64,000 nt of DNA, from NCBI GenBank assembly GCA_021733985.1, contig JAIPJT010000002.1, positions 50,468 to 114,467 of the forward strand, read 5' to 3'. A model generated the notes under the pieces. It saw nothing but the letters and a program-made list of their open reading frames with translations. It was not told the origin of the DNA and made no database searches. The position numbers and the translations under genes were made by a program. Each line of letters starts with the position of its first letter. Position 1 is the stretch's first letter. This document shows positions 26,775 through 50,234 of the stretch, in pieces. The stretch comes from Victivallales bacterium. GTDB lineage: Bacteria > Verrucomicrobiota > Lentisphaeria > Victivallales > GWF2-38-69.

Positions 26775-27848
26775 TTAATTTTTTCTGATAACTAAATAAC
26801 GGCTGAGTTCTAACAATAGTTTTTTGTAATTGCTGTCGGGGAAATCGGAGAGACAATTTTCAGCCTGTTGATGAAGAGTTTTTATTTGTTCGAGTGTAAT
26901 TTTTTCAGCGCCGGATTTTCTAACAAGATTTTTTATAATTTCCATATCTTCAACTGAAATTTTCTCTCTTCCAAGATAGGAACTAAGCAGTTCTCTTTCG
27001 GCTGACTCCAGTTTTTCAAGTGCCATGAGCATAAGGGTTGTTGGTTTTGACGCTTTGATGTCACTGCCGACTGACTTTCCTAATTTATCAGTATCGGAAA
27101 AAATACCAAGCCAATCATCTTTCAACTGGAAGGCTATGCCCAGTGATGAGGCAAAACCTGAAAGTTTTTTTATTCGGTGATCAGAATTATCAGCTGTATT
27201 TAAGGCTATTTTAGCTCCTGCTTTAACGCAGAAAGTAAGCAGAGCACCGGTTTTAAGGTAAATCATTTCTTTAACTTCCTCCGGCGTCACGTTGTTAATT
27301 GTTCTGTAGGACATTTCTACATCTATTGCTTCTCCACTGATAAGTTCTCTGGAAACTGTTTCCGCAAGGTCTCTGCATAATGACAAAGTTACATCAGGTG
27401 ATACACCATTTTCTGTTGATTTCAACAAAAGAGTTAAAGCCCAGGACTGTTGGAGATCGCCTGCTAAAAGTGCAAAATCAACACCAAACTTTTTTGATCC
27501 TGAAGTGTCAAGGGAAAAGGTTTCCGCGGCATAATTTTTCAGGTTAATATGAGTAGAAGGATTACCGCGTCTTAAATCATCATTGTCAATGATATCATCA
27601 TGTACGAGGGTCCAGTTATGATATATCTCAGCCGCTGCAGCAGCATAATATGCCATTTCAATGTTGCCGTTAAGTAAACCGCAGCACCATAAAACCAATG
27701 CCGGGCGAAGCCTTTTTCCCGGGTTTGACGGATATTGCAAAACTGCTTCCCTCAATTGTAACGGAGAAATTTTTGTAGGGTAATCATCAGTTTGTATTAT
27801 TGCATCAATTCCATCTGATACTTTTTTTAACTCATTAAACAGTAACAT
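26775..27848 (-). CDS. polyprenyl diphosphate synthase
   Basis: LVHDDIIDNDDLRRG (first Asp-rich motif) and FQLKDDWLGIF (second). Confidence 0.9.
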   Translation of the reverse strand: MLLFNELKKVSDGIDAIIQTDDYPTKISPLQLREAVLQYPSNPGKRLRPALVLWCCGLLNGNIEMAYYAAAAAEIYHNWTLVHDDIIDNDDLRRGNPSTHINLKNYAAETFSLDTSGSKKFGVDFALLAGDLQQSWALTLLLKSTENGVSPDVTLSLCRDLAETVSRELISGEAIDVEMSYRTINNVTPEEVKEMIYLKTGALLTFCVKAGAKIALNTADNSDHRIKKLSGFASSLGIAFQLKDDWLGIFSDTDKLGKSVGSDIKASKPTTLMLMALEKLESAERELLSSYLGREKISVEDMEIIKNLVRKSGAEKITLEQIKTLHQQAENCLSDFPDSNYKKLLLELSRYLVIRKN

Positions 27849-28495
27849 TATTTTCCTAATCTGGAATATTCATTTGCAAAATAAGCAACTTTTTCTATTT
27901 CCATTGTTATATCTATTCGCTCGACAAAAACATTATTAGGTACTCTTAATGTAGCGGGAGCAAAATTTAAAATACCTGTAACCCCTGCGCTGACGAGTTT
28001 ATCAGTAACTTTCTGGGCATATACTGACGGTACTGTGATAATTCCGAGCGTAATTCCTAATTCCTTTACCTTTGTTTTCATCTCAGATAATGGATAACAC
28101 TTGCAGCTTGCTATTACTTTACCTATTTTCTCTTCATCAATATCAAAAGCTGCTGCTACAGACGGGGTCGAGCGCTGATAATTAGAATAAGAAAGGATCG
28201 CTTTTCCTAAGTCGCCTACTCCTACCAGGGCTATCTGCCCGGCTTTGTCATTATCGAGTATTGAGTTTATGCTGTTTAAAAGGTAGTCTATACCGTAGCC
28301 CTGTTTTGGGTTCCCTCCTGAACAGCCTATAATCATTAAATCACGCCTGACCTGGGCAGGAGTGTTATTGGCTAATTCTGCTAACTGGTGTGAGTATATA
28401 TGACTTAATCTGTTGGATTTTAATTCAAGTAACTGGCGTCTGTAAATAGCCAGGCGCTCAATCGTTCTTGCAGGTATTTTTTCCTCTCTTTTCAT
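27848..28495 (-). CDS. rex: redox-sensing transcriptional repressor Rex
   Basis: N-terminal winged helix ERLAIYRRQLLEL...TPAQVRRDLMIIG; Rossmann IALVGVGDLGKAILSY. Confidence 0.95.
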   Translation of the reverse strand: MKREEKIPARTIERLAIYRRQLLELKSNRLSHIYSHQLAELANNTPAQVRRDLMIIGCSGGNPKQGYGIDYLLNSINSILDNDKAGQIALVGVGDLGKAILSYSNYQRSTPSVAAAFDIDEEKIGKVIASCKCYPLSEMKTKVKELGITLGIITVPSVYAQKVTDKLVSAGVTGILNFAPATLRVPNNVFVERIDITMEIEKVAYFANEYSRLGK

Positions 28496-28607: not shown

Positions 28608-29660
28608 TTAATAATAACTGCCGGGAAGTTTATCGAACTTTGTTATTTTATATATCAGTATTGATATAATCCAGCTGACCACAAAAATTCCAATTAAATA
28701 ATATCCCAGGTTACCGATATTTTCATTTAAAGAAGCAATATAAGTCCAGAAGCTTGATTTCAATTGAAGTTTGTTTCCTATAATAGTCAGTCCTTCAAGA
28801 CCGCCGATAAAAAATGCTATTAAAAAGGAGATTAAAGTTATTGTCATATTATAGAAAAGTTTTCTAGCCGGCTTTACGAAGGCCCATCCGTAAAGACCGA
28901 GCATAAGTATACCGTCGCTTGTATCAATAAGACACATTCCAGCCATAAACAGGAGGGGGAAAGTCATAATAGCCCATATAGTCATTCCTTGTGATGCCTG
29001 TGTAGCAGATATCCCGAGCAGTGCTATTTCTGTTGCTGTGTCAAAGCCGAGACCGAATAGAAAACCTACAATATACATATGATAGCTTTTGGAAACTATT
29101 TTGAACAACGGTTTGAAAATTCTTGCTAAAAAACCTCTGTTATCAAGTATTTCTTCTGCTTCTTCATGATTATAAATTATGCCTTTCCTATAGTTAATGA
29201 ATACTTTAAGGATATCAATGAATATTATTAGATTTATTACAGCAATTATAAGCAGAAACAGTGAAGATACAGAAGTTCCTATTAAACCTCCTATTTTTTG
29301 AAATTCCGGAAGATTGTCCTTCACAAAAATAGTCCCAATGGCAACAAGTATAGACAAAAGAAGTACAACTGATGAATGGCCTAAAGAAAAGAAAAAACCT
29401 GTTGTAACCGGTGTTTTTTTTTCATGTAAAAATTTTCTTGTAACATTATCAATGGCGGCAATATGATCGGCATCTACCGCATGCCTAAGACCAAAACCGT
29501 AGGCTAAAAAAGATAAAGCAAGAAGTTTCGGGCTTCCGGAAAATAATAAATAGGCCAGTCCCCAGCTAAATAAATTAAACAGAATGAGAAATATGTAAAT
29601 CCCGGTTATCCTGTATTTCAAGTTACTGTAACTGCTGCTGTTAAATATATTATTGAACAT
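28608..29660 (-). CDS. NiCoT-family nickel/cobalt permease
   Basis: Signature RHAVDADHIAAIDNVTRK, FFSLGHSSVV, LFGLGFDTATEIAL. Confidence 0.92.
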   Translation of the reverse strand: MFNNIFNSSSYSNLKYRITGIYIFLILFNLFSWGLAYLLFSGSPKLLALSFLAYGFGLRHAVDADHIAAIDNVTRKFLHEKKTPVTTGFFFSLGHSSVVLLLSILVAIGTIFVKDNLPEFQKIGGLIGTSVSSLFLLIIAVINLIIFIDILKVFINYRKGIIYNHEEAEEILDNRGFLARIFKPLFKIVSKSYHMYIVGFLFGLGFDTATEIALLGISATQASQGMTIWAIMTFPLLFMAGMCLIDTSDGILMLGLYGWAFVKPARKLFYNMTITLISFLIAFFIGGLEGLTIIGNKLQLKSSFWTYIASLNENIGNLGYYLIGIFVVSWIISILIYKITKFDKLPGSYY

Positions 29661-29996: not shown

Positions 29997-30058
29997 GTAT
30001 ATTATATATTTAATGTACAGATAAAAAGTATTTGTCTTTAGGAAAGTAGGAACTTTAA

Positions 30059-32479
30059 ATGAAAAAAGATGAAAAAACTCGATTTGCTTCATTAGTTGCA
30101 CACCAGCTGAAATCACCTGTAGCTGCTGCCGGAACAATGATTAAAACACTGCTGGGAGAGTTTGCAGGTTCTCTTACACCGCAGCAGAAAGATCTTTTAT
30201 TAAGAGTAAATACCAGGTTAACTGAAGCGATTGACACATCGAAAAGAATGATATCTTTGGCAAATCCAAAATCCATATTAGGCGAGGATTCTAATATTAT
30301 TGATATAACTCTTTTATTAAGACACTGCCATGCAAGGTATGAAGAGGAAGCAGCAATTAAGGGAATAACAATAGATGTTGATATTGAAGATGAGCCTTTA
30401 TTTACAAAAGGCAGTGAATCCGCAATAACTGAAATACTCAATTCATTAATAAGTAATTCTTTAAAATACACTCCTGAAAATGGCAGGATAAGACTGAAAA
30501 TATTACAGGATAGAAAAGACAAACATGACATAGTAATATCTTTTGCCGATTCAGGAATAGGTATTCCTGAGGATAAAATAGAGAAAATTTTTGAACCTTT
30601 TTACAGGTCAGCTTCAAATCAGGGATCAACTTTGCCAGGCGCAGGGCTGGGATTATCATTTGTGAAAACTGTGGTTGAAGTTTTAGGCGGCGAAATTACA
30701 GCCTCCAAGTCTGATATGGGGGGTGCTGAGTTTACCGTAAAACTGGATTCAGCTGACGCAAAAAAAGAAACTGAAAATAATAAGAATATAAAAAAACGCA
30801 TGAATGTCGTTATAATAGGCGGCGTAGCTGCCGGTCCTAAAGTAGCCTCAAAAATAGTTAGGTTGGCTCCTGAAACAGATGTTACGATAATTGAAAAAGA
30901 AGACATCCTATCATATTCCGGCTGTGGACTGCCATATTATATATCCGGAATAGTCACAAAAAAATCAGAACTTTTGTCAACTGCTGTAGAGGAAGTCAGA
31001 GATCCGGTTTTCTTTCAGAATATAAAAAATGTGAATATTCTGAACCGCACTGAAGCATTAAGTATAAATAGAGAAAAGAAAGAGGTTGAAATAAGAAATC
31101 TTATAAGCGGGCATAAGTCCTTTTTAGAATATGATAAACTTGTATTAGCTACAGGTGCTAAAGCGGTACTGCCTGAAATTCGCTGTATTGAACTTAAAAA
31201 TATTTTTACTCTTGACGGTGTCCATGATGCTGAAGGTATTAAACATTTTTTATCCGGGAAAAAAGCTAAAGATGTCGTTATTGTCGGTGGCGGTTTAATC
31301 GGATTGGAAATGACCGAGGCACTTGTGATGAAAGGGTGCAGGGTGACAATAATAGAAAAAAGGAAAAATGTTTTTAATATTCTTGATAAAGAAATCTCCC
31401 AACTTCTCCAAATGCACCTGGAGTCCCACGGGGTAAGGGTACTTACTGATACTGAAATTAAAAAATTCGAAGGCTCTGCAGGTAAGGTCACGGGCGTATT
31501 GACAGCTGATGAACTTATTCCGGCCGATATGGCAGTTATTGCCGCCGGTGTATTTCCTTCTACGGATTTAGCTGTGAATGCCGGTTTGGAAATTGGTGTT
31601 TCCGGTGCGATAAAAGTCAACAAAAGGATGGAAACTTCGGATAAAAATATTTTTGCCGCCGGTGACTGTGCTGAATGTTATGATATGGTGACAGGGAAAC
31701 CCTGTTATGTCCCGTTAGGATCTACAGCAAATAAAGAGGGAAGGGTGGCTGCTGTGAATATCTGCAACGGTGATGAAACTTTTCCCGGGGTTAACGGTAC
31801 TGTAGCATGCAAAGTATTCGATTATTATATTTCAAAAACAGGCCTGACTGAAAGAGAAGCTGTCAAAATGGGATATGATACAGTTAAAACTTTAACTGCA
31901 GGCCCCGATAGAGAACATTTCATGCCCAATGTAAAAAATTTGAAACTGAAACTGGTTGTAGACAGAAAAAGCAGGAAAGTTCTTGGTGCTCAGGCCATCG
32001 GAAACAGTAAAGGTTTTAATAAAATCGATATTATATCTGCATGTATGACAGGGAATTTAACAATTGATGATATCGCAAACCTTGATTTATGTTATGCACC
32101 CTCATTTTCTTTAGCTATTGACAATGTTATAACTGCTGCCAATGTAGCAAAAAATAAAATAGACGGTGTTTTTAAAAGCATCACTTCGGAAGAAGTATAT
32201 AGAAAAATAAACAATAGAGAGGACTTTATTCTGCTTGATGTAAGAAGCCATAAAGAATATGAAGAGTTCAGAATTACCGGTTCCAAGATAATTCCCCTTG
32301 GTGTTTTAAGGAACAGGCTTTTTGAACTTCCTAAAGACAAGGAGATTATAACTTTCTGTACTATATCTTTGAGAGGGTACGAAGCCGCACTTATATTGAA
32401 AGCTGCAGGATTTAAGAATGTAAAAGTTATGGACGGCGGTATTCTTATGTGGCCTTATGAAATAATTGAAGGGTTATAG
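30059..32479 (+). CDS. histidine kinase core fused to CoA-disulfide-reductase-like flavoprotein and rhodanese domain
   Basis: HisKA FASLVAHQLKSPVAAAGTM; HATPase DSGIGIPEDKIEKIFEPFY...GAGLGLSFVKTVVE; flavoprotein VVIIGGVAAGPKVAS...SYSGCGLPYYISG; rhodanese ITFCTISLRGYEAALILKAAGF. Confidence 0.9.
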   Translation: MKKDEKTRFASLVAHQLKSPVAAAGTMIKTLLGEFAGSLTPQQKDLLLRVNTRLTEAIDTSKRMISLANPKSILGEDSNIIDITLLLRHCHARYEEEAAIKGITIDVDIEDEPLFTKGSESAITEILNSLISNSLKYTPENGRIRLKILQDRKDKHDIVISFADSGIGIPEDKIEKIFEPFYRSASNQGSTLPGAGLGLSFVKTVVEVLGGEITASKSDMGGAEFTVKLDSADAKKETENNKNIKKRMNVVIIGGVAAGPKVASKIVRLAPETDVTIIEKEDILSYSGCGLPYYISGIVTKKSELLSTAVEEVRDPVFFQNIKNVNILNRTEALSINREKKEVEIRNLISGHKSFLEYDKLVLATGAKAVLPEIRCIELKNIFTLDGVHDAEGIKHFLSGKKAKDVVIVGGGLIGLEMTEALVMKGCRVTIIEKRKNVFNILDKEISQLLQMHLESHGVRVLTDTEIKKFEGSAGKVTGVLTADELIPADMAVIAAGVFPSTDLAVNAGLEIGVSGAIKVNKRMETSDKNIFAAGDCAECYDMVTGKPCYVPLGSTANKEGRVAAVNICNGDETFPGVNGTVACKVFDYYISKTGLTEREAVKMGYDTVKTLTAGPDREHFMPNVKNLKLKLVVDRKSRKVLGAQAIGNSKGFNKIDIISACMTGNLTIDDIANLDLCYAPSFSLAIDNVITAANVAKNKIDGVFKSITSEEVYRKINNREDFILLDVRSHKEYEEFRITGSKIIPLGVLRNRLFELPKDKEIITFCTISLRGYEAALILKAAGFKNVKVMDGGILMWPYEIIEGL

Positions 32480-32643: not shown

Positions 32644-33897
32644 TTAGAAGCTCAATTTCCAGGGGGCAAGAGTGCGTTCGAGGATCTCTTTTCCGTGGAT
32701 ATAGGAGAGAAAGATACCGTAATTGGTGTAAGGTATATTCAGTGAGTCTAAATCGCGCAGTCTGGCGCAGAGTTTCTGACGGGTTATCATACAGCCGCCA
32801 CAATGAATTATCAGCTTATATTCTAACAATTTTTTATTTTCCTGGAATTCCCTTCCGAAATTGTGTTCTATAACCGTTCCCGGGTAGTGTTTGTTAATAT
32901 AAGCGGGAATTTGTACAGTGCCGATATCCTCTTTTATTCGGGTATGGTTACATGCTTCGACAATTAAAATTTTATCTCCTTTTTTTATGTGGTCAAGTTG
33001 TTTTATTCCGGCAGCAAATTCTGCCAATTTTCCATTAGTGATATAATTGATCATCATAATGGAAAAAGTAGTAATCTGAATATCTGAAGGTGCCCAGTCT
33101 TTCATAATATCCATTGCCTGTGAATCTGTGATAATAACTTTAGGACGTTTTGAGAAACTGTTCAGGAAATTATCAAAATTCGCTTTTTCCGAGTTATCGA
33201 CGTTTCGGGCTCTTGAAAGCAGCATTCTGTAAGCGACAGGGTATGCCCGGTGACGGGTAATATATTCAACTGCCATCTGCTGAGGACGGAGAAGGCGTCC
33301 ATTGGGAGTTTCTTCATCCATGGGGATGTTAAGTATATAGAATTCACCCTTTTCCAGGAAGGGGAGCAGTTCAGTGTCTGTTTTTGATAAAGTATAGTTT
33401 TTAATTATAAAATCCAGCAGTTTCTGTCTGTTTGAAGATTTAATTGTCGATATTGCGAGTTTTTTATAGAATTTTAAAAGACTGAGTTCAATTTCTATTT
33501 TTTTAATTTTTTCATTATCTGCTTCCGGTTTAAAAAGGTTATATATAATTAGGAGCTGTTTATCAAGTTCCCTTGCATTCTCAATAATAGTTTGTTCTGT
33601 CTTAAAATCGTTGGTATTAATGTCTATAATTAACAGAACAAGATCACACTCCTTCAGAACGGACTGTACTTTTTTTTTCTTTTTTTCTCCGAGAATATTT
33701 CTTTCATCGAACCCTGCTGTATCAAACAATTTTACAGGACCGAGTCCATGTATTTCCTGGAGGGTGATTTTAGTATCTGCTGTTGTGCCGGGAGTATTAT
33801 CAACAATAGAAGTTTCCTGCTGTGTAAGCAAATTCATTACACAGCTTTTACCTGCATTCATTTTTCCGAATATACCAATATGCTCTCTGTTTATCAT
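32644..33897 (-). CDS. hydF: [FeFe]-hydrogenase H-cluster maturation GTPase HydF
   Basis: GIFGKMNAGKSCVMNLLTQQ P-loop; EACNHTRIKEDIG...HCGGCM. Confidence 0.93.
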   Translation of the reverse strand: MINREHIGIFGKMNAGKSCVMNLLTQQETSIVDNTPGTTADTKITLQEIHGLGPVKLFDTAGFDERNILGEKKKKKVQSVLKECDLVLLIIDINTNDFKTEQTIIENARELDKQLLIIYNLFKPEADNEKIKKIEIELSLLKFYKKLAISTIKSSNRQKLLDFIIKNYTLSKTDTELLPFLEKGEFYILNIPMDEETPNGRLLRPQQMAVEYITRHRAYPVAYRMLLSRARNVDNSEKANFDNFLNSFSKRPKVIITDSQAMDIMKDWAPSDIQITTFSIMMINYITNGKLAEFAAGIKQLDHIKKGDKILIVEACNHTRIKEDIGTVQIPAYINKHYPGTVIEHNFGREFQENKKLLEYKLIIHCGGCMITRQKLCARLRDLDSLNIPYTNYGIFLSYIHGKEILERTLAPWKLSF

Positions 33898-35042
33898 TTT
33901 ACTCCATACTGTCTTTGTTTTTTTGTGTAATGTACGGCATCACCGAACACCCCAAAGGCGAGTTCAGAACCGATTTTTTTAATTCGTTTGTTTAAATCTG
34001 ACTGGAAAGATAGTATATCGGATTCAAAACAGGGTTTATTATCATACAGTATATATGATTTTTTATATTTATGATCGTTAATATTTATCATAATTACGTT
34101 TGCACCTGCGAGTACTCCCTGTTCAAGACCTTTAGGGCTGAGTGCTTCCAGTGCTGTTGTAGCAGCGATATTAATATCCGGTAGATAGATTTTTGTGGCG
34201 GCTATCATTTTCAACCCCATAAGGAGTGATTTCTTTCTTGCCTTGTCATCAAAAGTACTGTAAAGATCTTTTCCCATCGGGGTGTCTCTATGAGGTATAT
34301 AAGGTCCCATGCCTATCATATCGACATCGATATCTTTATAAAATTTTATATCTTTAGCAAGGTCTGCTACTGTTTGGCCGGGGAAACCTATGAGAACGCC
34401 GGTACCTAACTGATAACCTGTCTTCTTTAATATTTTAAGGCAGTTTTTTCTGTCTTCAAAGCTTGAGGATTCAGGGTGTATTTCTGCATAAAGTTTCGGG
34501 TTGGAAGTTTCTATTCTGAGCAGATAGCGCCTTGCGCCGGCTTCATACCATTTCCGGTATGTCTCTTCTGTCTGTTCACCAAGCGAAAGAGTAATTCTTA
34601 GATTGCCTTTTGTAAGTTTTCGTGTTTCATGCAGGATATCCGTAACATAGTCTACAAATTTTTTATCCTTACGTTCTCCAGCCTGAATTACTACTGAAGC
34701 GTAATTATTTCTGTAAGCAAAATTTATGCAGTCAACAACTTCTTTCCTGCTTAAAAAATAACGCCTGTATTTTTTGTTGCTTTTTCTTATACCGCAGTAG
34801 TAGCAGTCTTCTGTGCATATATTGCTCAGTTCTATCAGTCCGCGTAAAAAAACCTTATTGCCGGTGGACTGTTTTTTTTTAAGGTATGCTTTTTCAAAAA
34901 GAAGTTTCTGAGCTCTTTCGTCTTCAAGAGAAAGAAGATGTTCCAAATCTTTAACAGAAAGCTTTTCCGCATTATTTATTTTTTTAATAATTGTTTCAAA
35001 CATTGTTGTATTATCGGGAAGTTTGTTATTGATTTTCTGCAT
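33894..35042 (-). CDS. hydE: [FeFe]-hydrogenase maturation radical SAM protein HydE
   Basis: IELSNICTEDCYYCGIRKSNKKYRRY radical SAM CxxxCxxC; GTGVLIGFPGQT; adjacent to hydF/hydG. Confidence 0.93.
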   Translation of the reverse strand: MQKINNKLPDNTTMFETIIKKINNAEKLSVKDLEHLLSLEDERAQKLLFEKAYLKKKQSTGNKVFLRGLIELSNICTEDCYYCGIRKSNKKYRRYFLSRKEVVDCINFAYRNNYASVVIQAGERKDKKFVDYVTDILHETRKLTKGNLRITLSLGEQTEETYRKWYEAGARRYLLRIETSNPKLYAEIHPESSSFEDRKNCLKILKKTGYQLGTGVLIGFPGQTVADLAKDIKFYKDIDVDMIGMGPYIPHRDTPMGKDLYSTFDDKARKKSLLMGLKMIAATKIYLPDINIAATTALEALSPKGLEQGVLAGANVIMININDHKYKKSYILYDNKPCFESDILSFQSDLNKRIKKIGSELAFGVFGDAVHYTKKQRQYGVK

Positions 35043-35099
35043 AGCTGCTTATTGAGTCAAAACAGGAGGCCTGTCAAAATATAAAGTTCTCCTCCCGGT

Positions 35100-36527
35100 T
35101 TAAAAATATAAATCGCGTTTACCTTTGTTTTCTATTTTTTCGAGCCTGGAGACCAGTTCGTTTTTGATCTTTTCATCGGAAAATTTTGACAGTTCTCTAT
35201 TAATAAGCGCATCGCCAAGATTTATGGTTGCCGGAGAAGCATAATCCATCAGGTACTCTTTCAAGGTTAACAGGGCGTTGGGAGTGCAGTATTTTTCAAT
35301 GAAACCGGGTATTGCGAATTCCATGAAACGTTCTCCTGTCCTGCCTAGTCGGTAGCAGGCTGTGCAGAAACTCGGGAGGTAGCCGTTATCAATAAGTTCA
35401 TAGATAATTTCGTCTATAGGACGCATGTCGCCTAGAGAGAACTGCTCTTTAAGTTTTCTCTCATCAAGCTTTGTATTTGAATATCCTCCAAGTTCGATTC
35501 TGGAGCCCGCATCAATTTGCGATACTCCAAATCCCAATAATTCCCGTCTGATATCAGGATTCTCCCTTGCTGTTAGTATCATTCCGGTATAAGGAACAGC
35601 CAGACGCAAAATAGCTACCAGACGTTTAAAATCATAGTCATTTACAAAGTATTTTTCATCTATTAATGTATTATGGACAGATTTTATTCGCGGGAAGCTT
35701 ATTGTATGTGGGCCCACACCGAATTTTTCCTGTAGAAAGAGAGAATGTTGTACCATTGCAAGGACTTCAAATTTCCAGTCGTAAAGACCGAAAAGTGCTC
35801 CGATTCCGACATCATCGCAACCCGCTTCAAATGCTCTGCTTAAACCATCAAGACGGTACAGATAATCATTTTTACAGGTATTTTCGGGATGTACTTTTTT
35901 ATAGGTTCCATGATGGTATGTTTCCTGAAAAATTTGATAAGTCCCTATTCCTGCTTCCTTAACAGTTTTGTAGTCATTAGTATCAAGTGGTGCTGCGTTA
36001 ATATTTACTCTTCTAATTTCACCGTTGCCATGTTTAACAGAATAAACCTTTTTAACTGTATCTGCGATAAATTCAGGCGAATACTTAGGGTGTTCGCCGA
36101 AAACTAATATTAAACGTTTATGGCCGCTATCTTCAAGTGCCCTAACTTCTGAAATAATTTCCTCCTGAGAAAGAGTTTTTCTCACAGTCGTCCTTAGGCT
36201 TTTGCGGAAACCGCAATATTTGCAGTCGTTAGTGCAGTAATTGCCAATATAGAGGGGGGCAAATATAACAATTCTGTTGCCGTATACAGATCTTTTCAGT
36301 TCACGGGCGGCTTCAAAAATTTCTTCTACCAATTCCGGGCTTTCGGCGGAAAGCAGCATAGCGGTTTCTTTAACCGAAAGAGGTTTTTTAGCCATGCTTT
36401 TAGTTATGATATCCCTGACCTTATACTTGTCTTCCCCGGTATCGTTGATTAAGTCTGTAATATAATCGTCATTTATAAAATCTTCGCATACACTTGAGCG
36501 GTCTTTATAAGTTTTCATCTTTTCCAA
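35100..36527 (-). CDS. hydG: [FeFe]-hydrogenase maturation radical SAM protein HydG
   Basis: YIGNYCTNDCKYCGFRKS and C-terminal SFCTACYRLGRTGERFMEFAIPGFIEKYCTPN cluster motif. Confidence 0.94.
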   Translation of the reverse strand: MEKMKTYKDRSSVCEDFINDDYITDLINDTGEDKYKVRDIITKSMAKKPLSVKETAMLLSAESPELVEEIFEAARELKRSVYGNRIVIFAPLYIGNYCTNDCKYCGFRKSLRTTVRKTLSQEEIISEVRALEDSGHKRLILVFGEHPKYSPEFIADTVKKVYSVKHGNGEIRRVNINAAPLDTNDYKTVKEAGIGTYQIFQETYHHGTYKKVHPENTCKNDYLYRLDGLSRAFEAGCDDVGIGALFGLYDWKFEVLAMVQHSLFLQEKFGVGPHTISFPRIKSVHNTLIDEKYFVNDYDFKRLVAILRLAVPYTGMILTARENPDIRRELLGFGVSQIDAGSRIELGGYSNTKLDERKLKEQFSLGDMRPIDEIIYELIDNGYLPSFCTACYRLGRTGERFMEFAIPGFIEKYCTPNALLTLKEYLMDYASPATINLGDALINRELSKFSDEKIKNELVSRLEKIENKGKRDLYF

Positions 36528-36547: not shown

Positions 36548-37699
36548 CTATGCACTTTCAGCAGGGGGCGAAGCAGCAGGAAGACTTTTTAATGTTACAA
36601 AAAAAGTAGTTCCTGTTCCGAACTCACTTTTTACTTTTATAGTTCCTTTATATAGTGAAATAAGTTTTTTAAGGATTGATAATCCCAGTCCGCTCCCTTC
36701 AATATTTGCGGTCTTCTCATTTTTAAATCTGACGAATTCGCCGAAAAGACGCTTTTGCTCTTCCGGTTTCATGCCGATCCCGCCATCTTCCACGGTGATA
36801 TATATACTGTCTTCTTCCTGTTCTATTTTTATATTTACATAACCATTTTCTTTATTGTATTTAACGGCATTTGAAATCAGGTTGTTGAACATTATTTCAA
36901 GCTCACTGAGTTCACCGTTCATTAATATTTTTTCCTGAGCATCGAGGTTTATACTTATATTTCTTTCATCTGCTTTCAGTTTATTTGTTTCTATGGAACG
37001 TTCGACTGCTTCAATGAGGTTAATCTGCTTTATCTTTCTTATTTTTTGTCCCGACTCAATTCGAGTGAGGTCAAGAAGGTCAAAAATAAGCTTGCGCATG
37101 CCGTTAATTCTTTCCATTGAGCGCTTAATCATATTGTCATAGCTTTTTATATCATTTCCAGCTACCCTGTCATCGATTACTCGCAAATAGCCGTCAATTG
37201 CGTTTAGAGGAGCTTTCAGCTCGTGAGACAAAACAGAAAGGAACTGAAATCTGACTTTTTTCTTGTCCTCTTCCAGTTTTTTTGCTTTGCGATGAAGAAC
37301 AATATTAGTAGAAGCTTTTTTTACTACTTTTCTGAGTTCTTCAGGGGTAAAGGGCTTAGCCAGGAAATCAAAAGCCCCGCTTTTAGTGGCGCTTATAGCT
37401 ACTTCCAATGAGGCGAACGCAGTCATCATAACTGTATGGGCATCGTACTTCATTTTTTTTAGCCTGTCCAGAATCTCAAGCCCGCTTATATCGTCAAGTT
37501 TATAGTCAAGCAGTATTATGTCAAACTGGGTTTTACTTAATAAATCCAAAGCCTCATTGCCTGTTGTAGCCTGACTTATTTCAAATTCAACAGTGTCATT
37601 AAAATCTCTCAATTCAAATTTATATTTACGAAGAGCCCGGAACGCGCCTCTGCGCATCCCCGGTTCATCGTCTACAACTAAGAGCTTTAAAATTAGCAT
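36548..37699 (-). CDS. hybrid receiver-histidine kinase
   Basis: N-terminal receiver (IILLDYKLDDISGLEIL); HisKA FLSVLSHELKAPLNAIDGY; HATPase GSGLGLSILKKLI. Confidence 0.9.
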   Translation of the reverse strand: MLILKLLVVDDEPGMRRGAFRALRKYKFELRDFNDTVEFEISQATTGNEALDLLSKTQFDIILLDYKLDDISGLEILDRLKKMKYDAHTVMMTAFASLEVAISATKSGAFDFLAKPFTPEELRKVVKKASTNIVLHRKAKKLEEDKKKVRFQFLSVLSHELKAPLNAIDGYLRVIDDRVAGNDIKSYDNMIKRSMERINGMRKLIFDLLDLTRIESGQKIRKIKQINLIEAVERSIETNKLKADERNISINLDAQEKILMNGELSELEIMFNNLISNAVKYNKENGYVNIKIEQEEDSIYITVEDGGIGMKPEEQKRLFGEFVRFKNEKTANIEGSGLGLSILKKLISLYKGTIKVKSEFGTGTTFFVTLKSLPAASPPAESA

Positions 37700-37704
37700 T
37701 TAAT

Positions 37705-38112
37705 TTATCCTAATAATTTATTTATTTCATTATAAAGCTGTTCGTTTCTAATATCTTTATCAAGAATTACATCAGCTTTAATCCATGAACGCATTTCATC
37801 TGTTGATACATCAAAGTGATAGCCTGTTTCGTTTGTCACATTTGTAACTATTATTACCGGGATTTTCGGGTTTGTTTTTTTTAACTTGTAGCTGAGTACA
37901 AAACCGCTGTCACTGTTTTCCATCATAAGGTCAAACACGGCAAGATCAAAATCGGTTTCCTGTATTAGCTTCTCGCCCTCAGCCTGTGAACCTCCAACAA
38001 CAACTTCAAAGCCATAGCTTTTCAGATAGAACGAAATAAGTTCCTGATAATCGAAATCATCATCAACGACCAAAGCTGTTTTCCCAAAATATCTTTTTTC
38101 CTGTTCTGACAT
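37705..38112 (-). CDS. single-domain response regulator
   Basis: ALVVDDDFDYQEL...DLAVFDLMMENSDSGF; no output domain. Confidence 0.85.
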   Translation of the reverse strand: MSEQEKRYFGKTALVVDDDFDYQELISFYLKSYGFEVVVGGSQAEGEKLIQETDFDLAVFDLMMENSDSGFVLSYKLKKTNPKIPVIIVTNVTNETGYHFDVSTDEMRSWIKADVILDKDIRNEQLYNEINKLLG

Positions 38113-38144
38113 TATTTTCTCCTCTTTTATTCAATTTTAATAGT

Positions 38145-40163
38145 TTAATTTTTTCTTGGCAAAGAAATAGTAAATTCTGTCCAGGTGGGGCCCTTTTCAG
38201 GTTCCGCATTGGTTTTTACTGTAATATTGCCTTTATGTGTTTTTATAATACCGTAAGAAACGGCCAGGCCCAAACCGGTGCCCTTTCCAATCTGCTTAGT
38301 GGTAAAGAGCGGTTCAAAAATTTTATTAATGTATTTTTGCTGAATGCCGCTGCCTTCGTCCTTTATTTTTACATAAATTTTATCTTCATTATCATAGGCC
38401 TGAATATTAATAGTGCCTTTTTCCTGCATTGCGTCAATAGCATTCACAATCAGGTTTACAAGAACCTGAGTAATTTTATCTCCGTGTACTTCCGCAATCG
38501 GGTCATTAAAATTAGAGTCAATTATAATATTGACCTCTTCAGGTTTTATGATTGTCTTAAGAGAATTTTTGATTAACTTATCAATGTTAGTAAGTTCAAT
38601 GTCAAGTGTGTTTTTCCTGGAAAAATTTAGCAGTCCTGAAACAATTTTTTTACATCTTTTAGCCTGTTCCACTATCAAATCAATGTCTTCTTTATACTCT
38701 TCGAGTTCCGGAGTCTCTGAAATCTCTTCCAGCAAACCGGAGGCATTAAGCAGAATGACACCAAGCGGATTATTTATTTCATGGGCAATACCTGCAGAAA
38801 GCTGACCCATGCTGGCAAGCTTTTCCGCATTGAAAAGAGCTTCCTGAGTTTTTTCCAGGCTGGTTTTCGATATTTTAAGATCTTCAAGTGAATTTTTAAG
38901 ACGTTCTATTGTATAGGGAAGGCACATTTCATTTTCAGCAAGACCTGCGTATATTGCCTGCGCATGTTCACGGCAGGTTTCATATCCGCATGCCCCGCAA
39001 TTCAGCTCGTCTTCAATTGTATATTTACCGAGTTTTTCCAGAATAGTTACTATTTTTTTGTTAGGTGGCTCTGTGAACCTTATGTCCGAAGCACGGAAGA
39101 TAGCTTTCATATCCAGTTCCTGATTCAGTAAACCGTGAAACATATCCCTGTTTATATGTAAATCAGAATATTCAAAACGGGATTTAACGTAGTTACTTAC
39201 AGCTGTACGGCGTGCGAAATATGATTGTTTTTCTTCAGAAGGCATGCCTGCGCCCATGATACATCCCTGACAGCATAAAACTTCAAGCAGTTTAGAGTCA
39301 AACTTTTTATTATGATATTCATCTAATGCTCTGACAAAGTCCTCTTTCCCGTCTGCCGTAAGAATATGTGAATTCAGCAGGTTTACTCTCATGTCAGCTG
39401 CCTGAAGCATCCCGCCGCGAAGCGGGAACAGTGCTCCGAGCCCGGGTTTCGGGGGGTCAAAATCCCGGGGAGTAAGTTTTTCACCGTCAATTTCTTCAGC
39501 TTCAAACATTTCAATAAGTTCCTGAAATGTAAGAACGCTTGCAATTTCAGTGGAGCCGTCTTCTGTAGGATACTTCAGAGCTTCTGCCTTTTTGGATATA
39601 CACGGTCCGATAAAAACGGTTTTTATATCGCCGTATATAATTCTCAGGGCCCTTGAAGTAGCTATCATCGGCGACACTATCGGTGCAAGATAGCTGAAAA
39701 GGATAGGGTGATATTTCTCAACAAATGATACAATTCCCGGGCAGGTAGTTGCAATATATGATTTGTCCGGATTATTAAAAACCAGTTCTTTATAGGCATG
39801 GGCTACAAAATCTGCACCGAAAGCGACTTCGCAAACATGATCAAAGCCTAATTCTTTAATCATGCTTACCAGGCGTCCGGCATTTATTCCCTGAAAAGCA
39901 GCCGGAAAACTCGGTGCAACTATTGCAATAGTTTTTATGTCTGATTTCAGAATATCATTTGTTTCATCAATGGACCCGTAATATTTTTTTGCTTTCTGGC
40001 TGCAGACAAGTACACAATGTCCGCAGCCTATGCAGCGTTCGGGTATGACTTCTGCCTGTCCATTGGATACACGTATAGCTTTAGCAGGACAGCTTCGTAT
40101 ACACGTATAGCACATCCTGCATCTTTCCTTAATAGTAGTAACTAATGTTATATTATTATCCAC
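38145..40163 (-). CDS. [FeFe]-hydrogenase-like domain fused to Fe-S domain and histidine kinase (putative H2/redox sensor)
   Basis: Two 4Fe-4S motifs; L1/L2/L3-like YIATTCPGI, VFIGPCISKKAEA, EVLCCQGCIMGAGMP; CGACGYETCREHA Fe-S motif; HisKA GQLSAGIAHEINNPLG; HATPase GTGLGLAVSYGII. Confidence 0.92.
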   Translation of the reverse strand: MDNNITLVTTIKERCRMCYTCIRSCPAKAIRVSNGQAEVIPERCIGCGHCVLVCSQKAKKYYGSIDETNDILKSDIKTIAIVAPSFPAAFQGINAGRLVSMIKELGFDHVCEVAFGADFVAHAYKELVFNNPDKSYIATTCPGIVSFVEKYHPILFSYLAPIVSPMIATSRALRIIYGDIKTVFIGPCISKKAEALKYPTEDGSTEIASVLTFQELIEMFEAEEIDGEKLTPRDFDPPKPGLGALFPLRGGMLQAADMRVNLLNSHILTADGKEDFVRALDEYHNKKFDSKLLEVLCCQGCIMGAGMPSEEKQSYFARRTAVSNYVKSRFEYSDLHINRDMFHGLLNQELDMKAIFRASDIRFTEPPNKKIVTILEKLGKYTIEDELNCGACGYETCREHAQAIYAGLAENEMCLPYTIERLKNSLEDLKISKTSLEKTQEALFNAEKLASMGQLSAGIAHEINNPLGVILLNASGLLEEISETPELEEYKEDIDLIVEQAKRCKKIVSGLLNFSRKNTLDIELTNIDKLIKNSLKTIIKPEEVNIIIDSNFNDPIAEVHGDKITQVLVNLIVNAIDAMQEKGTINIQAYDNEDKIYVKIKDEGSGIQQKYINKIFEPLFTTKQIGKGTGLGLAVSYGIIKTHKGNITVKTNAEPEKGPTWTEFTISLPRKN

Positions 40164-44754: not shown

Positions 44755-45126
44755 TTATAACTTGTTTTTTATCGTGTTCAGAAGAGTTTGAGGATTAATG
44801 GGTTTCTGGAAAATACCGTTTAAACCGAGTTCCGTATAATTGACTGTGTCATTTAAGTTATCACCAATGGAGCTTAACATGTATACAGGCACATTGTCTG
44901 ATAAAAGCCTTACTTCCTTTACAAAATTTACTCCGGCATCTACTTCTTCCATCATCAAATCCACTATAGTGAGATCGGGACTGCATTGTTTAAATTTTTT
45001 TATACCTTCTTCCGCCGAGGAGGCTTCTTCCATAATATATCCGTTCTGTTCAAGAATAAATTTTAAAGAATTGCGTACATCCTGATCATCGTCTACACAG
45101 AGGATTACATATTTATTGTCTCTCAT
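44755..45126 (-). CDS. single-domain response regulator
   Basis: VILCVDDDQDVRNSLK...DLTIVDLMMEEVDAG. Confidence 0.85.
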   Translation of the reverse strand: MRDNKYVILCVDDDQDVRNSLKFILEQNGYIMEEASSAEEGIKKFKQCSPDLTIVDLMMEEVDAGVNFVKEVRLLSDNVPVYMLSSIGDNLNDTVNYTELGLNGIFQKPINPQTLLNTIKNKL

Positions 45127-45161: not shown

Positions 45162-45608
45162 TTAAACTGTATTTTTCTTAATACAATATTTTAAAAAATT
45201 TGCGGCCTTAAATAAATTAGCTTCAGCTTGTTCTGATAAAGCTTCACTGTAACTGTTGAAATCATACCCTCTTATACCAAGGATATAGGCTTCCGGTTTT
45301 CTATTAAAAAGTTTTAATGTTAGCCCGATTAAGTTTTCAGGAGTTATGCTGTGGCTTGAAAATTTTATTTCTTCAGCCGGTTCTATCTTTTTAAAATAAA
45401 AAGGTTTACTGCAGCTTACATCGGCGTCAGCAAAAATTACAGTATCATGTTTGGATATCTCAATGGCATCTTCAACAGTCAACTGGTAATTACTCTCTAC
45501 CGTAAGATTAGGATAATTTCCATTATTAAACAATTCGGCTAATGCAGGCCCCAGACCGTCATCAAGACGGCCCGGATTGCCGTAGCCTATTAATAAAATA
45601 TTGCTCAC
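45162..45608 (-). CDS. [NiFe]-hydrogenase maturation protease (HoxW/HyaD family)
   Basis: MSNILLIGYGNPGRLDDGLGPALAELF; immediately downstream of large subunit. Confidence 0.85.
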   Translation of the reverse strand: MSNILLIGYGNPGRLDDGLGPALAELFNNGNYPNLTVESNYQLTVEDAIEISKHDTVIFADADVSCSKPFYFKKIEPAEEIKFSSHSITPENLIGLTLKLFNRKPEAYILGIRGYDFNSYSEALSEQAEANLFKAANFLKYCIKKNTV

Positions 45609-45614
45609 ACTGAC

Positions 45615-47042
45615 TTAGTTCCTTGATTCAGTTTGAATTATATGGCCATCATTGTCAAGCAGTTCAAACTTCAACGGCATTTTGCCTAAAGCGTGTGTAG
45701 CGCATGACAGGCATGGATCATAGGCTCTTATTGCTACTTCCACTTCATTCATAAGCGGTTCAGTAATTTCAGGTTTGCCGGAAATTCTTTCTTCCGCGAC
45801 TTTTTTAACAGCCTGATTCATCGGTTCATTATTACTTGTAGTCGAGACTATAAGATTGGCCATAGTAATCTGATCATTGTCATTGACCTGATAATGATGG
45901 AATAAAGTACCTCTCGGTGCTTCAATAATACCGACACCTTCATTCCTTCTTTCTCCGGAAACGACAAGGTCATTGCCCTGTAAATCGTCATCATTGAGAA
46001 GGCTTTTGATAACTTCAACAGAATGAAGCATTTCAATCATTCTGGCCCAATGGTAAGCCATTGTAATATTATTGGGCTTATTGTCGGTTACAGCCATGAA
46101 CTCTTTTCTTGCTGCTTCCGCTTCAGGAGTGTCAATGTAATCACAAACATTTACTCTTGCAAGGGGACCAACCCTGTACCAGCCGTTTTCATGTCCAATT
46201 TCACGGATAAACGGGAATTTCATATATGACCAGGACTTGACTTCTTCTGCGATATAATGATGATATTTCTGGTTGTCAAGATGGTCAAATATTTTGTTTC
46301 CGTCTTTATCTATTGCGCGGACACCGCCGTCATAGAAGTCCATTGCACCGTCTTTGCGGACAATCCCAAGATGGTTAGAGTCAAAAGAACCGAAAGAAGC
46401 GATCTTATCAAGATTATCTATAGTATAATCTTTTGCTATTTTTAACGCTCCGCGGGACCATTCAAGTATTTGTTCAATATCCTTAAGGAAGTTATCACGC
46501 TCTTCAATAGAAAGATTTTTATTAATGCCGCCCGGGATTGCGCCGGTACCATGTATCTTCTTGCCGGCTGTTGCTTTGATGAGTTCCTGTCCGTATTTAC
46601 GCAGCATAACCCCCTGTACCGCCAAGTCGGGATGTTTTTCTATTACGCCGATAACGTTGCGGATTGCAGGATCAGCATCAAAACCGAAAAGAAGATCCGG
46701 AGAACAGAGATGGAAAAAATGCAGGGCGTGTGACTGCAGCATCTGTCCGTAATGCATTAACCTGCGCATCTTTTCCGCGGTAGGCGTAAGTTTGTCAGCT
46801 CCGACTATTACATCCATTGCTTTAGCCGCTGCAAGATGGTGGCTTACCGGACAGATTCCGCATAGACGCTGTACCAGTACAGGTACTTCCCAGTAGGGAC
46901 GGCCGAGTATGAAACGTTCAAATCCTCTGAACTCGACAATATGCAATCTGCTTTGAGTTACTTTATTATTGTCATCCAGCTGAATGGTCACTTTTCCGTG
47001 CCCTTCAACTCTCGTGACAGGTTCAATAACAATTTTTTTCAT
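45615..47042 (-). CDS. hoxH: bidirectional [NiFe]-hydrogenase large subunit
   Basis: VQRLCGICPVSHHLAAAKAMD and DPCLSCATHALGKMP with C-terminal extension. Confidence 0.94.
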   Translation of the reverse strand: MKKIVIEPVTRVEGHGKVTIQLDDNNKVTQSRLHIVEFRGFERFILGRPYWEVPVLVQRLCGICPVSHHLAAAKAMDVIVGADKLTPTAEKMRRLMHYGQMLQSHALHFFHLCSPDLLFGFDADPAIRNVIGVIEKHPDLAVQGVMLRKYGQELIKATAGKKIHGTGAIPGGINKNLSIEERDNFLKDIEQILEWSRGALKIAKDYTIDNLDKIASFGSFDSNHLGIVRKDGAMDFYDGGVRAIDKDGNKIFDHLDNQKYHHYIAEEVKSWSYMKFPFIREIGHENGWYRVGPLARVNVCDYIDTPEAEAARKEFMAVTDNKPNNITMAYHWARMIEMLHSVEVIKSLLNDDDLQGNDLVVSGERRNEGVGIIEAPRGTLFHHYQVNDNDQITMANLIVSTTSNNEPMNQAVKKVAEERISGKPEITEPLMNEVEVAIRAYDPCLSCATHALGKMPLKFELLDNDGHIIQTESRN

Positions 47043-47088: not shown

Positions 47089-47634
47089 CTAATCATACTT
47101 GATCAACTCATAAGGAAGATCCAGCGGTTTATCAGTTAATAATGCAACTAAAGCCTGCCATAGTGTTTCAGCAGGAGGCGGACATCCCGGCAAATGGTAA
47201 TCCATCTTGACGATTTCGCTGCATGGATAAACTTTATCCAGTAGTAAAGGAATATCCGGACCGTTAGGAGCTTTACCTGTAGGATTATATATTGTCGGTC
47301 CTTCGAGGTAAGCCTTTTGCAGGCATTCCTGCAGTGGAATTCCGTTGCGCATAGCCGGGATTCCGCCCATTATAGCGCAGTCACCAACTGAGATCAATAT
47401 ATCGCAGTTTCTACGGAAGTCCTGTAGATTGTGTGCATTTTCCTCGTTTGCACATCCGCCTTCTATGAGTCCTACGGCGCAGCGCTCTGTGAATTTCTTA
47501 ATGTCATCTACCGGTGATTTATTGAATTCAACCAGTTCGACCAGCTTTAAAATTTTATCGTCAATATCAAGCAAAGACATATGACAGCCGAAACAACCGG
47601 CTAATGAAGCTGTAGCAACTTTAGGTTTTCCCAT
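47089..47634 (-). CDS. hoxY: bidirectional [NiFe]-hydrogenase small subunit
   Basis: SLAGCFGCHMSLLDID...VGDCAIMGGIPAMRN...PGCPPPAETLW. Confidence 0.94.
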   Translation of the reverse strand: MGKPKVATASLAGCFGCHMSLLDIDDKILKLVELVEFNKSPVDDIKKFTERCAVGLIEGGCANEENAHNLQDFRRNCDILISVGDCAIMGGIPAMRNGIPLQECLQKAYLEGPTIYNPTGKAPNGPDIPLLLDKVYPCSEIVKMDYHLPGCPPPAETLWQALVALLTDKPLDLPYELIKYD

Positions 47635-47652: not shown

Positions 47653-48363
47653 TTAGCTTGATTGATTCTTGTTTTCAATTTCGGAACCGATCGGCTTGTT
47701 ATCGTATAAGCGTTCGCCAATAGGTACTGCATAACCTACTCTTTTCTTGAGTAAAGCACCAACCGGGCATACTTCGACCGCTTTGTCGGTGACATCGATT
47801 TCTGTATCGCTGAGTTTGGCTTCAGAATTTACCGCTACTCTCTTATCCGGCCCGCGGTCCACGAACTCAAAAACATTTTTGCCGTCAATATCCTGTGAAG
47901 CCCGAACACATCTGCCGCAGAGTACGCAGCGGTTTCTGTCAATGAAGATATCTTTATGCGAAGCATCAATATCTCTTTTTGGGAACAGGTAAGGGTATTT
48001 AGGAGCGAGTACACCAAGTCTGTATGCCAAAGCCTGCAGCTCGCAGTTACCGCTTTTTTCACAGAACATGCAATAGTGGTTACCTTCTACGAACAGCATT
48101 TCAATAATATCTTTTCTGATCTGCTGTACTTCTTCTGAACTGTTGTCAACAGTGATTCCCTCGGCGATCGGCTGAGTACATGCTGCCTGAGCTCTTCCAT
48201 TGACAAAAACTGTACATACACGGCAGCTTCCGTGCGGCTGCAAACCTTCGTACGTACAAAGACGCGGGATATATATACCGGCAGCATCTGCTGCTTCCAT
48301 TATCGTCTGTCCGGGTTTGCCTTTGATATCAACATTATCAATTTTAAAAGTAATGTCTGCCAT
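47653..48363 (-). CDS. hoxU: NAD-reducing hydrogenase diaphorase small subunit
   Basis: 2Fe-2S YIPRLCTYEGLQPHGSCRVCTVFVNG; His/Cys cluster HYCMFCEKSGNCELQ; RCVLCGRCVRAS. Confidence 0.92.
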   Translation of the reverse strand: MADITFKIDNVDIKGKPGQTIMEAADAAGIYIPRLCTYEGLQPHGSCRVCTVFVNGRAQAACTQPIAEGITVDNSSEEVQQIRKDIIEMLFVEGNHYCMFCEKSGNCELQALAYRLGVLAPKYPYLFPKRDIDASHKDIFIDRNRCVLCGRCVRASQDIDGKNVFEFVDRGPDKRVAVNSEAKLSDTEIDVTDKAVEVCPVGALLKKRVGYAVPIGERLYDNKPIGSEIENKNQSS

Positions 48364-48374: not shown

Positions 48375-50234
48375 TTATTCTGTAGTATATACAACAGATT
48401 TGCGTTCTGCTATTTTTTCGCTGTCTTTAAGAGCTTTTGAAATATCGAATGACGGATTCATTCCGGTTTCATCTGTTTTGACCAGATTTTCATATAATGT
48501 TCTGAAATTCTGCAATGAAGTAAGGATCGGGTTTGCAGAGGTCTGTCCCAGACCGCATCTGCTTGCTAACTTTACTGTTTTACCTAAAGATTCAAGATTG
48601 CTTATATCTGTAGTCAAACCTTTACCGTTAATTATTTTTTCAAGGGTATCCTTGAGCAGTACATTTCCCACCCTGCATGGTGTACAGTAACCGCAGCTCT
48701 CTTCAATAAAGAATTCCATGAAATAATCTACGACTTCCAGAAGGTTGCGGTCCCTGCTGAATACCATTATTGAACCGCCGGTCGCCAGGTCATCATAACA
48801 TATTTTTCTGCCGAAATCGTTAGCAGCTACCAAAGTACCGGAAGGTCCGCCCATTTGTACGGCGGCAGTGTCTTTGGCTCCGGTTTTTTCCAGTACTTCT
48901 GAAACTGTTGTTCCGAAGGGCAGTTCATAGACTCCGGGTTTTTCGCAGTCGCCTGATATGCTTAAAACTTTAGTTCCCTTGCTGCCTGCTGATCCTCTGG
49001 CGGCAAACCATGCGGCGCCTTTTTCGATAATTTTAACTACGCATGCAAGAGTTTCGACATTATTTACACAGGTCGGAAGGCCGAGATAGCCTTTCTGGGC
49101 AGGGAATGGAGGGCGGGTCTTGGGGTCGCCGCGGCTTCCTTCACAGGAACTTATAAGTGCCGTTTCTTCTCCGCATACATAAGCACCCGCTCCCATTTGA
49201 ATACGAATATCAAAATCAAATGCGGATTTACTTTTCAGGAGTCCGCCTAAACGTTTTTTGGGGGAAATATTTTTCCCGAGTAGACCATTTTCACGCCGTT
49301 TAGCCAGTTTTTCTTCAAGGAATTTTCTCAGATAAGCATACTCACCCCTGAGATAAAGAATACCGGTGTCTGCTCCGATTGCGTATCCGGCAATAGTCAT
49401 TCCCTCAAAAACCATGTCAGGACACTCTGTAAGGATAGCTCTGTCTTTGAACGTTCCGGGTTCGCCTTCATCAGCATTACAGATAATAGCTTTTTTATCT
49501 CCTTCAGCCGCACGGGTGAAATCCCATTTCATTCCTGTTGGAAAGCCTGCTCCTCCACGTCCTCTTAAACTTGCGGCTTTGACATTGCGTATTACTTCTT
49601 TAGGGCTTGAAGATAATGCTTCTTTTAGAGCCGCGCCGGAAACATATTCCGAAAAAACAATTTCACCCTTCTGGTGAATGTTATTCATTACCATGGAATT
49701 AACAAGAGGGTTCCCATTGTTGCCATCACCCGGTTCAGCCACGAGTTTTTTCGGGTCTCCGCTTTCTTTCAAGGTTGATATAATCTGTCCGGCCTTATCA
49801 GCTGTCAGGTTTGTAACAATTTCATCATTTATCATGATTGCAGGTGCCTGATCGCACATACCGATACAAGGTGTTTTTTCCAGCGTAAATTTTCCGTCGG
49901 CTGTTGTTTCCCCGCAATTGATGCCGAGTTCTTTTTCAAAAGCAGAGATAATTGAATCAGATCCGGCCTGCCTGTCTATAATGTCGTCACAGACACGGAT
50001 TACAAAATTACCTTTCTGGTCTTTTGAAAGGAATGCATAAAAAGACACTACACTTTCTACCTCGACTCTGTGTACAGAAACTTCAGAAGCAATTAAATTA
50101 ATCGCTTCATCTGATACACAGCCAAATTTTTCCTGAACATCTCTCACGATATCCATAAGTCTGCTGCGGTCATTTCCGCAGGCCTTGCAGATATCAGCGA
50201 TTTCTTTTTTCAGGTCCTTAGGAGTCGTCGTCAT
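48375..50234 (-). CDS. hoxF: NuoE-NuoF fused diaphorase subunit of [NiFe]-hydrogenase (HoxE/HoxF)
   Basis: N-terminal NuoE-like VVSFYAFLS...CIGMCDQAPAIMIND; NuoF-like SLRGRGGAGFPTGMKWDF, ESCGYCTPCRVGN. Confidence 0.92.
   Translation of the reverse strand: MTTTPKDLKKEIADICKACGNDRSRLMDIVRDVQEKFGCVSDEAINLIASEVSVHRVEVESVVSFYAFLSKDQKGNFVIRVCDDIIDRQAGSDSIISAFEKELGINCGETTADGKFTLEKTPCIGMCDQAPAIMINDEIVTNLTADKAGQIISTLKESGDPKKLVAEPGDGNNGNPLVNSMVMNNIHQKGEIVFSEYVSGAALKEALSSSPKEVIRNVKAASLRGRGGAGFPTGMKWDFTRAAEGDKKAIICNADEGEPGTFKDRAILTECPDMVFEGMTIAGYAIGADTGILYLRGEYAYLRKFLEEKLAKRRENGLLGKNISPKKRLGGLLKSKSAFDFDIRIQMGAGAYVCGEETALISSCEGSRGDPKTRPPFPAQKGYLGLPTCVNNVETLACVVKIIEKGAAWFAARGSAGSKGTKVLSISGDCEKPGVYELPFGTTVSEVLEKTGAKDTAAVQMGGPSGTLVAANDFGRKICYDDLATGGSIMVFSRDRNLLEVVDYFMEFFIEESCGYCTPCRVGNVLLKDTLEKIINGKGLTTDISNLESLGKTVKLASRCGLGQTSANPILTSLQNFRTLYENLVKTDETGMNPSFDISKALKDSEKIAERKSVVYTTE

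Follow-up and report, generated by a model that had tools for sequence, protein, structure and literature searches.

A histidine kinase fused to an NADH-dependent persulfide reductase, and a hydrogenase-operon receiver that tracks it across bacterial phyla

Known sulfane-sulfur sensors are mostly repressors, and receiver-thioredoxin reductase fusions appear under the annotation name 'fused response regulator/thioredoxin-disulfide reductase'. In the HoxBC-HoxJ-HoxA system of Ralstonia/Cupriavidus, the histidine kinase in control of the NAD-linked hydrogenase genes receives its signal from a redox enzyme (PMC6978683; PMC10073562), a mode of sensing described as 'protein activity sensing' (PMC6978683). 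On the enzyme side, the closest described proteins are of the NADH-dependent persulfide reductase (Npsr) type, represented by A. fulgidus 6PFZ, S. loihica 3NTA/3NT6, B. anthracis CoADR-RHD 3ICR, and E. faecalis CoAPR 8A56 (PMC7969121).

We analysed a 64,000-nucleotide stretch of DNA from a Victivallales bacterium (hereafter, the window), in which a sequence-only reading had described one 806-aa open reading frame joining HisKA, HATPase, disulfide reductase, and rhodanese domains, with the kinase starting the frame directly and without an N-terminal sensor. The frame is indeed uninterrupted over these coordinates, and the Pfam domains agree with the description. The features of the gene, all on the + strand, are as follows.

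30059..32479, + strand: fusion gene, 806 aa, histidine kinase - NADH-dependent persulfide reductase (FAD/NAD disulfide reductase - rhodanese); uninterrupted frame, Pfam domains, 22 like loci
30048..30051, + strand: Shine-Dalgarno AGGA, 7 nt 5' of the start codon of the fusion; read directly and scored
30065..30256, + strand: DHp/HisKA helices, residues 3-66, with the phospho-acceptor His15 in AHQLKSPV; sub-threshold Pfam HisKA, modelled helices, invariant His15
30413..30751, + strand: HATPase_c catalytic domain, residues 119-231, with intact N, G1, F, and G2 boxes; Pfam E 1.5e-24
30752..30799, + strand: linker between kinase and enzyme, residues 232-247, of low model confidence; pLDDT <50 at 235-245
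30800..31687, + strand: FAD/NAD(P)-binding disulfide reductase, residues 248-543, with Cys289 and the NADH-type Glu433; Pfam Pyr_redox_2 E 2.5e-60
31805..32119, + strand: Pyr_redox dimerisation domain, residues 583-687, with Tyr679 of the YAP motif; Pfam Pyr_redox_dim E 5.3e-15
32189..32452, + strand: rhodanese domain, residues 711-798, with the catalytic-loop Cys767 in CTISLRG; Pfam E 8.9e-15

The HATPase_c, Pyr_redox_2, Pyr_redox_dim, and Rhodanese matches all scored well above their Pfam cut-offs, and the HisKA match (residues 6-52) stayed below its gathering score (19.1 vs 26.9 bits). An AlphaFold model, for which 15 family members were aligned, contained the two long DHp helices typical of HisKA (residues 3-32 and 41-66), together with an ATPase, a two-domain flavoenzyme, and a rhodanese (mean pLDDT 79). 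Confidence was low in the linker (residues 235-245) and the pTM was 0.62, so the relative placement of the two halves and the geometry of their coupling are not readable from the model. His15 was invariant in 21/21 aligned fusions, and the HATPase residues N133, D164, G166, G168, F178, G194, G196, and G198 and the enzyme residues Cys289, Glu433, and Tyr679 were invariant as well; Cys767 was found in 20/20 complete members. The active-site Cys of SGCGLPYY (Cys289) and the Cys loop CTISLRG (Cys767) are both as the sequence-only reading had described them. Neither a sensor domain N-terminal to the kinase nor any other input domain was found in the protein from the frame and the Pfam search.

The enzyme half had been called CoA-disulfide-reductase-like. 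A flavin disulfide reductase with a rhodanese it is, but a plain CoA-disulfide reductase it is not, the nearest relatives being of the Npsr type. By sequence and by fold, the nearest solved structure was that of the A. fulgidus NADH-dependent persulfide reductase (6PFZ; 42% identity and target-normalised TM 0.92 for the enzyme half), and the NCBIfam cut-offs of the CoA-disulfide reductase equivalogs were not reached (TIGR03385, 400.4 vs 578.8; NF007123, 373.1 vs 458). A single active-site Cys, a dimerisation domain, and a C-terminal rhodanese with a Cys, which characterise Npsr/CoADR-RHD proteins, are all present. Since the residues of the Npsr mechanism are kept and the CoADR equivalogs are not reached, HK-Npsr is a fitter name than HK-CoADR, and the fused persulfide reductase is complete and, judged from its sequence, probably active. 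Glu433 aligns with Glu183 of A. fulgidus Npsr, the residue that closes the second strand of the NAD fold and explains the NADH preference of that enzyme (PMC7969121), and a preference for NADH is predicted for the enzyme half on this basis. The genome of the window holds two more, unfused persulfide reductase-like genes (C10:14998-16671 and C46:6882-8504; 45% and 33% identical), so that the fused copy is not the sole enzyme of its kind.

A full-length homologue of the fusion, 58% identical, was found in another genus of the same family, and the search for this architecture across genomes that the sequence-only reading had proposed returned, with the locus of the window counted, 22 loci from 21 genomes, all with the same domain order, which puts the architecture well past coincidence. 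The taxa are Lentisphaerae and other Verrucomicrobiota, Planctomycetota, Desulfobacterota-type bacteria, and Myxococcota. Ten loci came from scanning 84,980 species genomes with residues 1-305 of the fusion (Lentisphaerae, Thermodesulfobacteriota, Deltaproteobacteria, Planctomycetota/Phycisphaerae/Sedimentisphaerales, and Myxococcota), and eleven more from class and phylum searches, in which G297 repeated a record of the scan. The count of 22 is a lower bound, because the scan was limited to two peptide patterns and the sampling of Planctomycetota and Desulfobacterota was unsystematic. One Phycisphaerae genome (G457) carries two copies, L036, which is truncated by a contig end, and L038. In L095 (G085), an in-frame stop (10433-10435) lies between the reductase and the rhodanese, and the rhodanese resumes in the same frame. 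A 1636-aa frame in L112 (G360) was considered as a larger fusion and rejected on inspection, the upstream extension being a long open frame in high-GC DNA. In the phylogenies, the enzyme halves of all 21 fusions used formed one clade (support 97/96) beside unfused enzymes of related genomes, and the kinase halves also formed one clade (support 100/99). A single clade for each half fits one fusion event for all loci, followed by inheritance and transfer.

Most fusion genomes originate from metagenome assembly, and two genes could in principle have been joined by a frameshift, a mis-assembly, or an internal translation start. The probability of such an artefact is negligible, and as a general explanation of the fusion it is already refuted: the same junction recurs in 22 loci from 21 genomes and several phyla, no internal start/Shine-Dalgarno pair at the enzyme half is conserved in position across the fusions, and both halves are under purifying selection (dN/dS 0.09-0.29 for the kinase half and 0.06-0.23 for the enzyme half in six close pairs). 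Read-through or mis-assembly was rejected on the recurrence and the lack of a conserved internal start. The Met at the start of the enzyme half is absent from many fusions (e.g., P0002, L033, L035, L039, and L112-L116), and in L112 no start codon close to the enzyme half is usable. In the window, no Shine-Dalgarno precedes the ATG at 30800, whereas AGGA precedes the kinase start; the earlier observation that the internal Met lacks a good Shine-Dalgarno was thus borne out, and the conclusion of a real fusion drawn from it now rests on the recurrence, the selection, and the single clades as well.

That no partner response regulator is adjacent to the fusion, as previously noted, is literally true, but a strong candidate partner lies 12 kb off in the same window. 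It ends a hox operon for a NAD-linked [NiFe] hydrogenase that extends from the hoxEF-like gene (50234) to the protease-like gene (45162), with the receiver gene last.

48375..50234, - strand: hoxEF-like NAD(H)-binding diaphorase subunit; Pfam 2Fe-2S_thioredx, Complex1_51K, and NADH_4Fe-4S
47653..48363, - strand: hoxU-like diaphorase subunit; NCBIfam HoxU 3e-62, below its cut-off
47089..47634, - strand: hoxY-like [NiFe] hydrogenase small subunit; Pfam Oxidored_q6 1.5e-26
45615..47042, - strand: hoxH-like [NiFe] hydrogenase large subunit; Pfam NiFeSe_Hases 6.9e-36
45162..45608, - strand: probable hydrogenase maturation protease; place after hoxH conserved in related hox operons
44755..45126, - strand: single-domain response regulator, 123 aa, probable partner of the fusion, last gene of the hox operon; open reading frame, Pfam Response_reg 2.5e-23

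The product of 45162..45608 had no Pfam match at 1e-5 and no NCBIfam match at 1e-20, and is presumably comparable to HycI-type proteases. The receiver has no output domain, and D12-D14, D56, and K108 were invariant in 16 receivers, the acidic pocket, phospho-Asp, and Lys being kept.

In a profile search, this receiver subfamily was found in 19/21 fusion genomes (132-215 bits), where it mostly ends the hox operon; the hox loci of 12 fusion genomes besides that of the window have the receiver gene at the same place. It was not found in the searched data of the remaining fusion genomes, G392 and G456. The subfamily was also missing in 5/5 checked genomes in which the best-matching enzyme is an unfused one (G021, G004, G011, G055, and G218; enzyme 49-56% identical), with receiver matches of at most 93 bits. 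Among 378 genomes of the phylum, 10 had both fusion and receiver, 1 only the fusion, 4 only the receiver, and 363 neither (Fisher p 7e-16, a value that overstates the association, since one family supplies seven of the eleven fusion genomes in this sample and the genomes are therefore not independent). Five families of the phylum and six further genomes from outside it have the pair, with the two genes usually at separate places on the chromosome. The association between fusion and receiver is tight. As a single-domain receiver tracks the fusion across phyla, the kinase is probably not an orphan, its probable partner being the hox-operon receiver; with a single fusion event, part of the co-occurrence may reflect joint inheritance or transfer.

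The receiver gene adjoins the fusion only in L033 (G455), a genome that has no close hox genes; there it lies beside the fusion and a molybdopterin (formate dehydrogenase-type) gene, and elsewhere it is usually distant. In G459 the receiver gene and NAD-linked formate dehydrogenase-type genes are transcribed divergently, and its counterpart in G454 lies near a lipoyl/E3 dehydrogenase operon. Four genomes have the receiver without the fusion (G079, G279, G305, and G427); in two of them, G079 and G305, and also in G082, the receiver adjoins another histidine kinase of GAF or sCache type, as would be expected if the receiver needs a kinase partner. The tracking receiver stands beside such kinases at L168 464-2462, L169 927-2823, and L176 2982-5490, an apparent exchange of the sensor kinase around one receiver. 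In the related genomes G297 and G429 (L110 174-6237 and L111 5263-11006), genes for a PAS histidine kinase and a two-receiver protein come after the fusion, and the tracking receiver is located elsewhere in the genome. Two receivers of the window that lie nearer to the fusion were considered as partners and rejected: the one at 37705-38112 belongs to a different subfamily (~30% identity to the tracking receiver) and sits with an [FeFe] hydrogenase cluster, and that of 36548-37699 is part of the same cluster.

The [NiFe] hydrogenase is itself associated with the fusion. A hoxH with 72-79% identity was present in 15/21 fusion genomes, and in the phylum sample the counts for both, fusion only, hoxH only, and neither were 10, 1, 6, and 361 (p 6e-15). 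The hox operon adjoins the fusion in L095, hoxEF is divergent from it in L117, and in L038 the genes directly 5' of it on the same strand are a fragment of that for the [NiFe] large subunit and one for a HycI-type protease. This linkage, although strong, was rejected as the primary signal, since outside the phylum the receiver link is the stronger of the two. The window additionally contains a complete [FeFe] hydrogenase cluster (36548-44380 and 32644-36527, both - strand) with NuoE/NuoF-like and HndD-type (group A6) subunits and HydG/HydE/HydF. Its regulators are an Fe-hydrogenase-like histidine kinase (38145-40163), the receiver at 37705-38112, and a receiver-kinase hybrid (36548-37699); 38145-40163 is a second enzyme-kinase fusion only a few kb from the HK-Npsr fusion. 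Genes for a Rex redox repressor and a NiCoT nickel transporter (27848-28495 and 28608-29660, - strand) lie directly upstream of the fusion and divergent from it, and Rex-like genes also occur beside hox/receiver operons in L119, L121, and L131.

Because the protein has no other sensor domain and the fusion is strictly kept, the best-supported reading is that the kinase responds to the redox or persulfide state of the enzyme. The data show the fusion, its conservation, its intact active-site residues, and its tight association with the receiver; from them we infer that the enzyme acts as the input, that the kinase is active, in which direction the signal runs, and the role of the receiver. We consider it reasonably probable that the fusion acts as a soluble two-component sensor, with the persulfide reductase as a sensor domain C-terminal to the kinase and the receiver at 44755-45126 as the output. 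NADH would reduce the FAD/Cys289 of the fused enzyme, and persulfide arriving via Cys767 and CoA would reoxidise it, so that the charge state of the enzyme would report on the ratio of NADH to sulfane sulfur. NADH binding, FAD reduction, or a persulfide or CoA-persulfide load on Cys289/Cys767 may alter the enzyme dimer, and the short linker may pass this change to the kinase dimer; both halves belong to dimeric families, which could offer a route for conformational coupling. The kinase half would then set the phosphorylation of the receiver, and hydrogenase or dehydrogenase function would in this way depend on the balance between NADH and persulfide. The operon position of the receiver suggests that it acts on, or with, the NAD-linked hydrogenase or dehydrogenase. 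The broader proposal, that these proteins form a new class of cytoplasmic redox sensor with a catalytically active Npsr as input and a receiver of hydrogenase/formate dehydrogenase operons, by which sulfane sulfur/NADH would control H2/formate metabolism across phyla, is put forward tentatively and falls a little short of probable.

The reductase and the kinase might share a polypeptide for co-expression or co-localisation while the kinase takes its signal from elsewhere, and a linker that is both poorly conserved and poorly modelled would suit such a bifunctional but uncoupled protein. Yet the protein contains no other input domain, and the fusion has stayed intact across phyla, including in L112 with no usable start on the enzyme side, even though unfused enzymes are common; we therefore regard this explanation as quite improbable. 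Much the same low probability is given to an indirect association, in which fusion and receiver co-occur only because each accompanies the NAD-linked hydrogenase, and the fusion in truth works with another regulator. The parallel co-occurrence of hoxH with the fusion would be accounted for in this way, as would the hox operons with the receiver and without the fusion in G427, G305, and G279; however, the receiver is present without a close hoxH in G454, G455, G459, and G082, in G455 even adjoining the fusion, and G218 combines a close hoxH and an unfused enzyme with the lack of the receiver.

The chemistry of the kinase half raises another alternative. The residue after His15 is Gln (Gln16) in 21/21 aligned fusions, in place of the acidic residue of HisKA kinases, and tested HisKA kinases need Glu/Asp right after the phospho-His for autophosphorylation (PMC3510030). 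The E372Q variant of CrdS lost kinase activity and kept phosphatase activity, and the corresponding Glu-to-Gln exchange in NtrB gave a kinase-negative phenotype (PMC3510030). His-Gln would thus remove the acid for autophosphorylation with ATP binding retained, and the kinase half could be a dedicated phosphatase or phosphate sink for the receiver, with the state of the enzyme gating dephosphorylation. The invariant Gln and the CrdS result make a phosphatase-biased protein a serious rival, and the second kinases that adjoin the fusion in L035/L110 and L111 are in keeping with it. We still hold it to be rather unlikely, since the fusions strictly keep His15 as well as the N and G boxes, for which a pure phosphatase would have no obvious need, and since the relatives of the kinase include HQ-type HisKA proteins that have ordinary sensor domains (L041-L044). 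Phosphatase activity also needs Thr/Asn at helix position +4, a position that is mostly Ser in the fusions (Ser, Ala, or Thr overall). The invariant His-Gln poses a question of kinase chemistry, namely how, or whether, such a HisKA protein autophosphorylates.

Compared with described proteins, the fusion shares with the Npsr-type enzymes the disulfide reductase-rhodanese arrangement, the active-site Cys, the CoA-pocket Tyr, the NADH-type Glu, and the rhodanese Cys, but those enzymes have no kinase, and the fusions form a separate enzyme clade. Receiver-thioredoxin reductase fusions, for which no paper was found in the open-access literature, likewise combine a two-component domain with a flavin disulfide reductase; they differ in carrying a receiver instead of a kinase and a reductase of another family. 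As no description of a kinase-rhodanese-CoADR or Npsr-histidine kinase fusion was found in the open-access literature either, the fusion looks like an undescribed sensor of the redox or sulfur state of the cell. If true, the kinase-Npsr fusion and its dedicated hydrogenase-operon receiver would provide a direct, testable link between the persulfide/NADH state and hydrogen metabolism in uncultured anaerobes. The [FeFe]-hydrogenase-like histidine kinases, such as 38145-40163, resemble the fusion in joining a redox-enzyme fold to HisKA/HATPase near hydrogenase genes, whereas their enzyme part is N-terminal and of the Fe-only hydrogenase type instead of a flavin persulfide reductase. To our knowledge, the enzyme that informs a kinase such as HoxJ is a separate protein in the enzyme-coupled systems described so far. 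In HoxBC-HoxJ-HoxA, a separate regulatory hydrogenase senses and HoxA binds DNA, whereas in the fusion the putative sensor is a persulfide reductase in covalent attachment to the kinase, and the receiver lacks any output or DNA-binding domain; by analogy, the fusion may work like HoxBC-HoxJ-HoxA while not being a member of that system.
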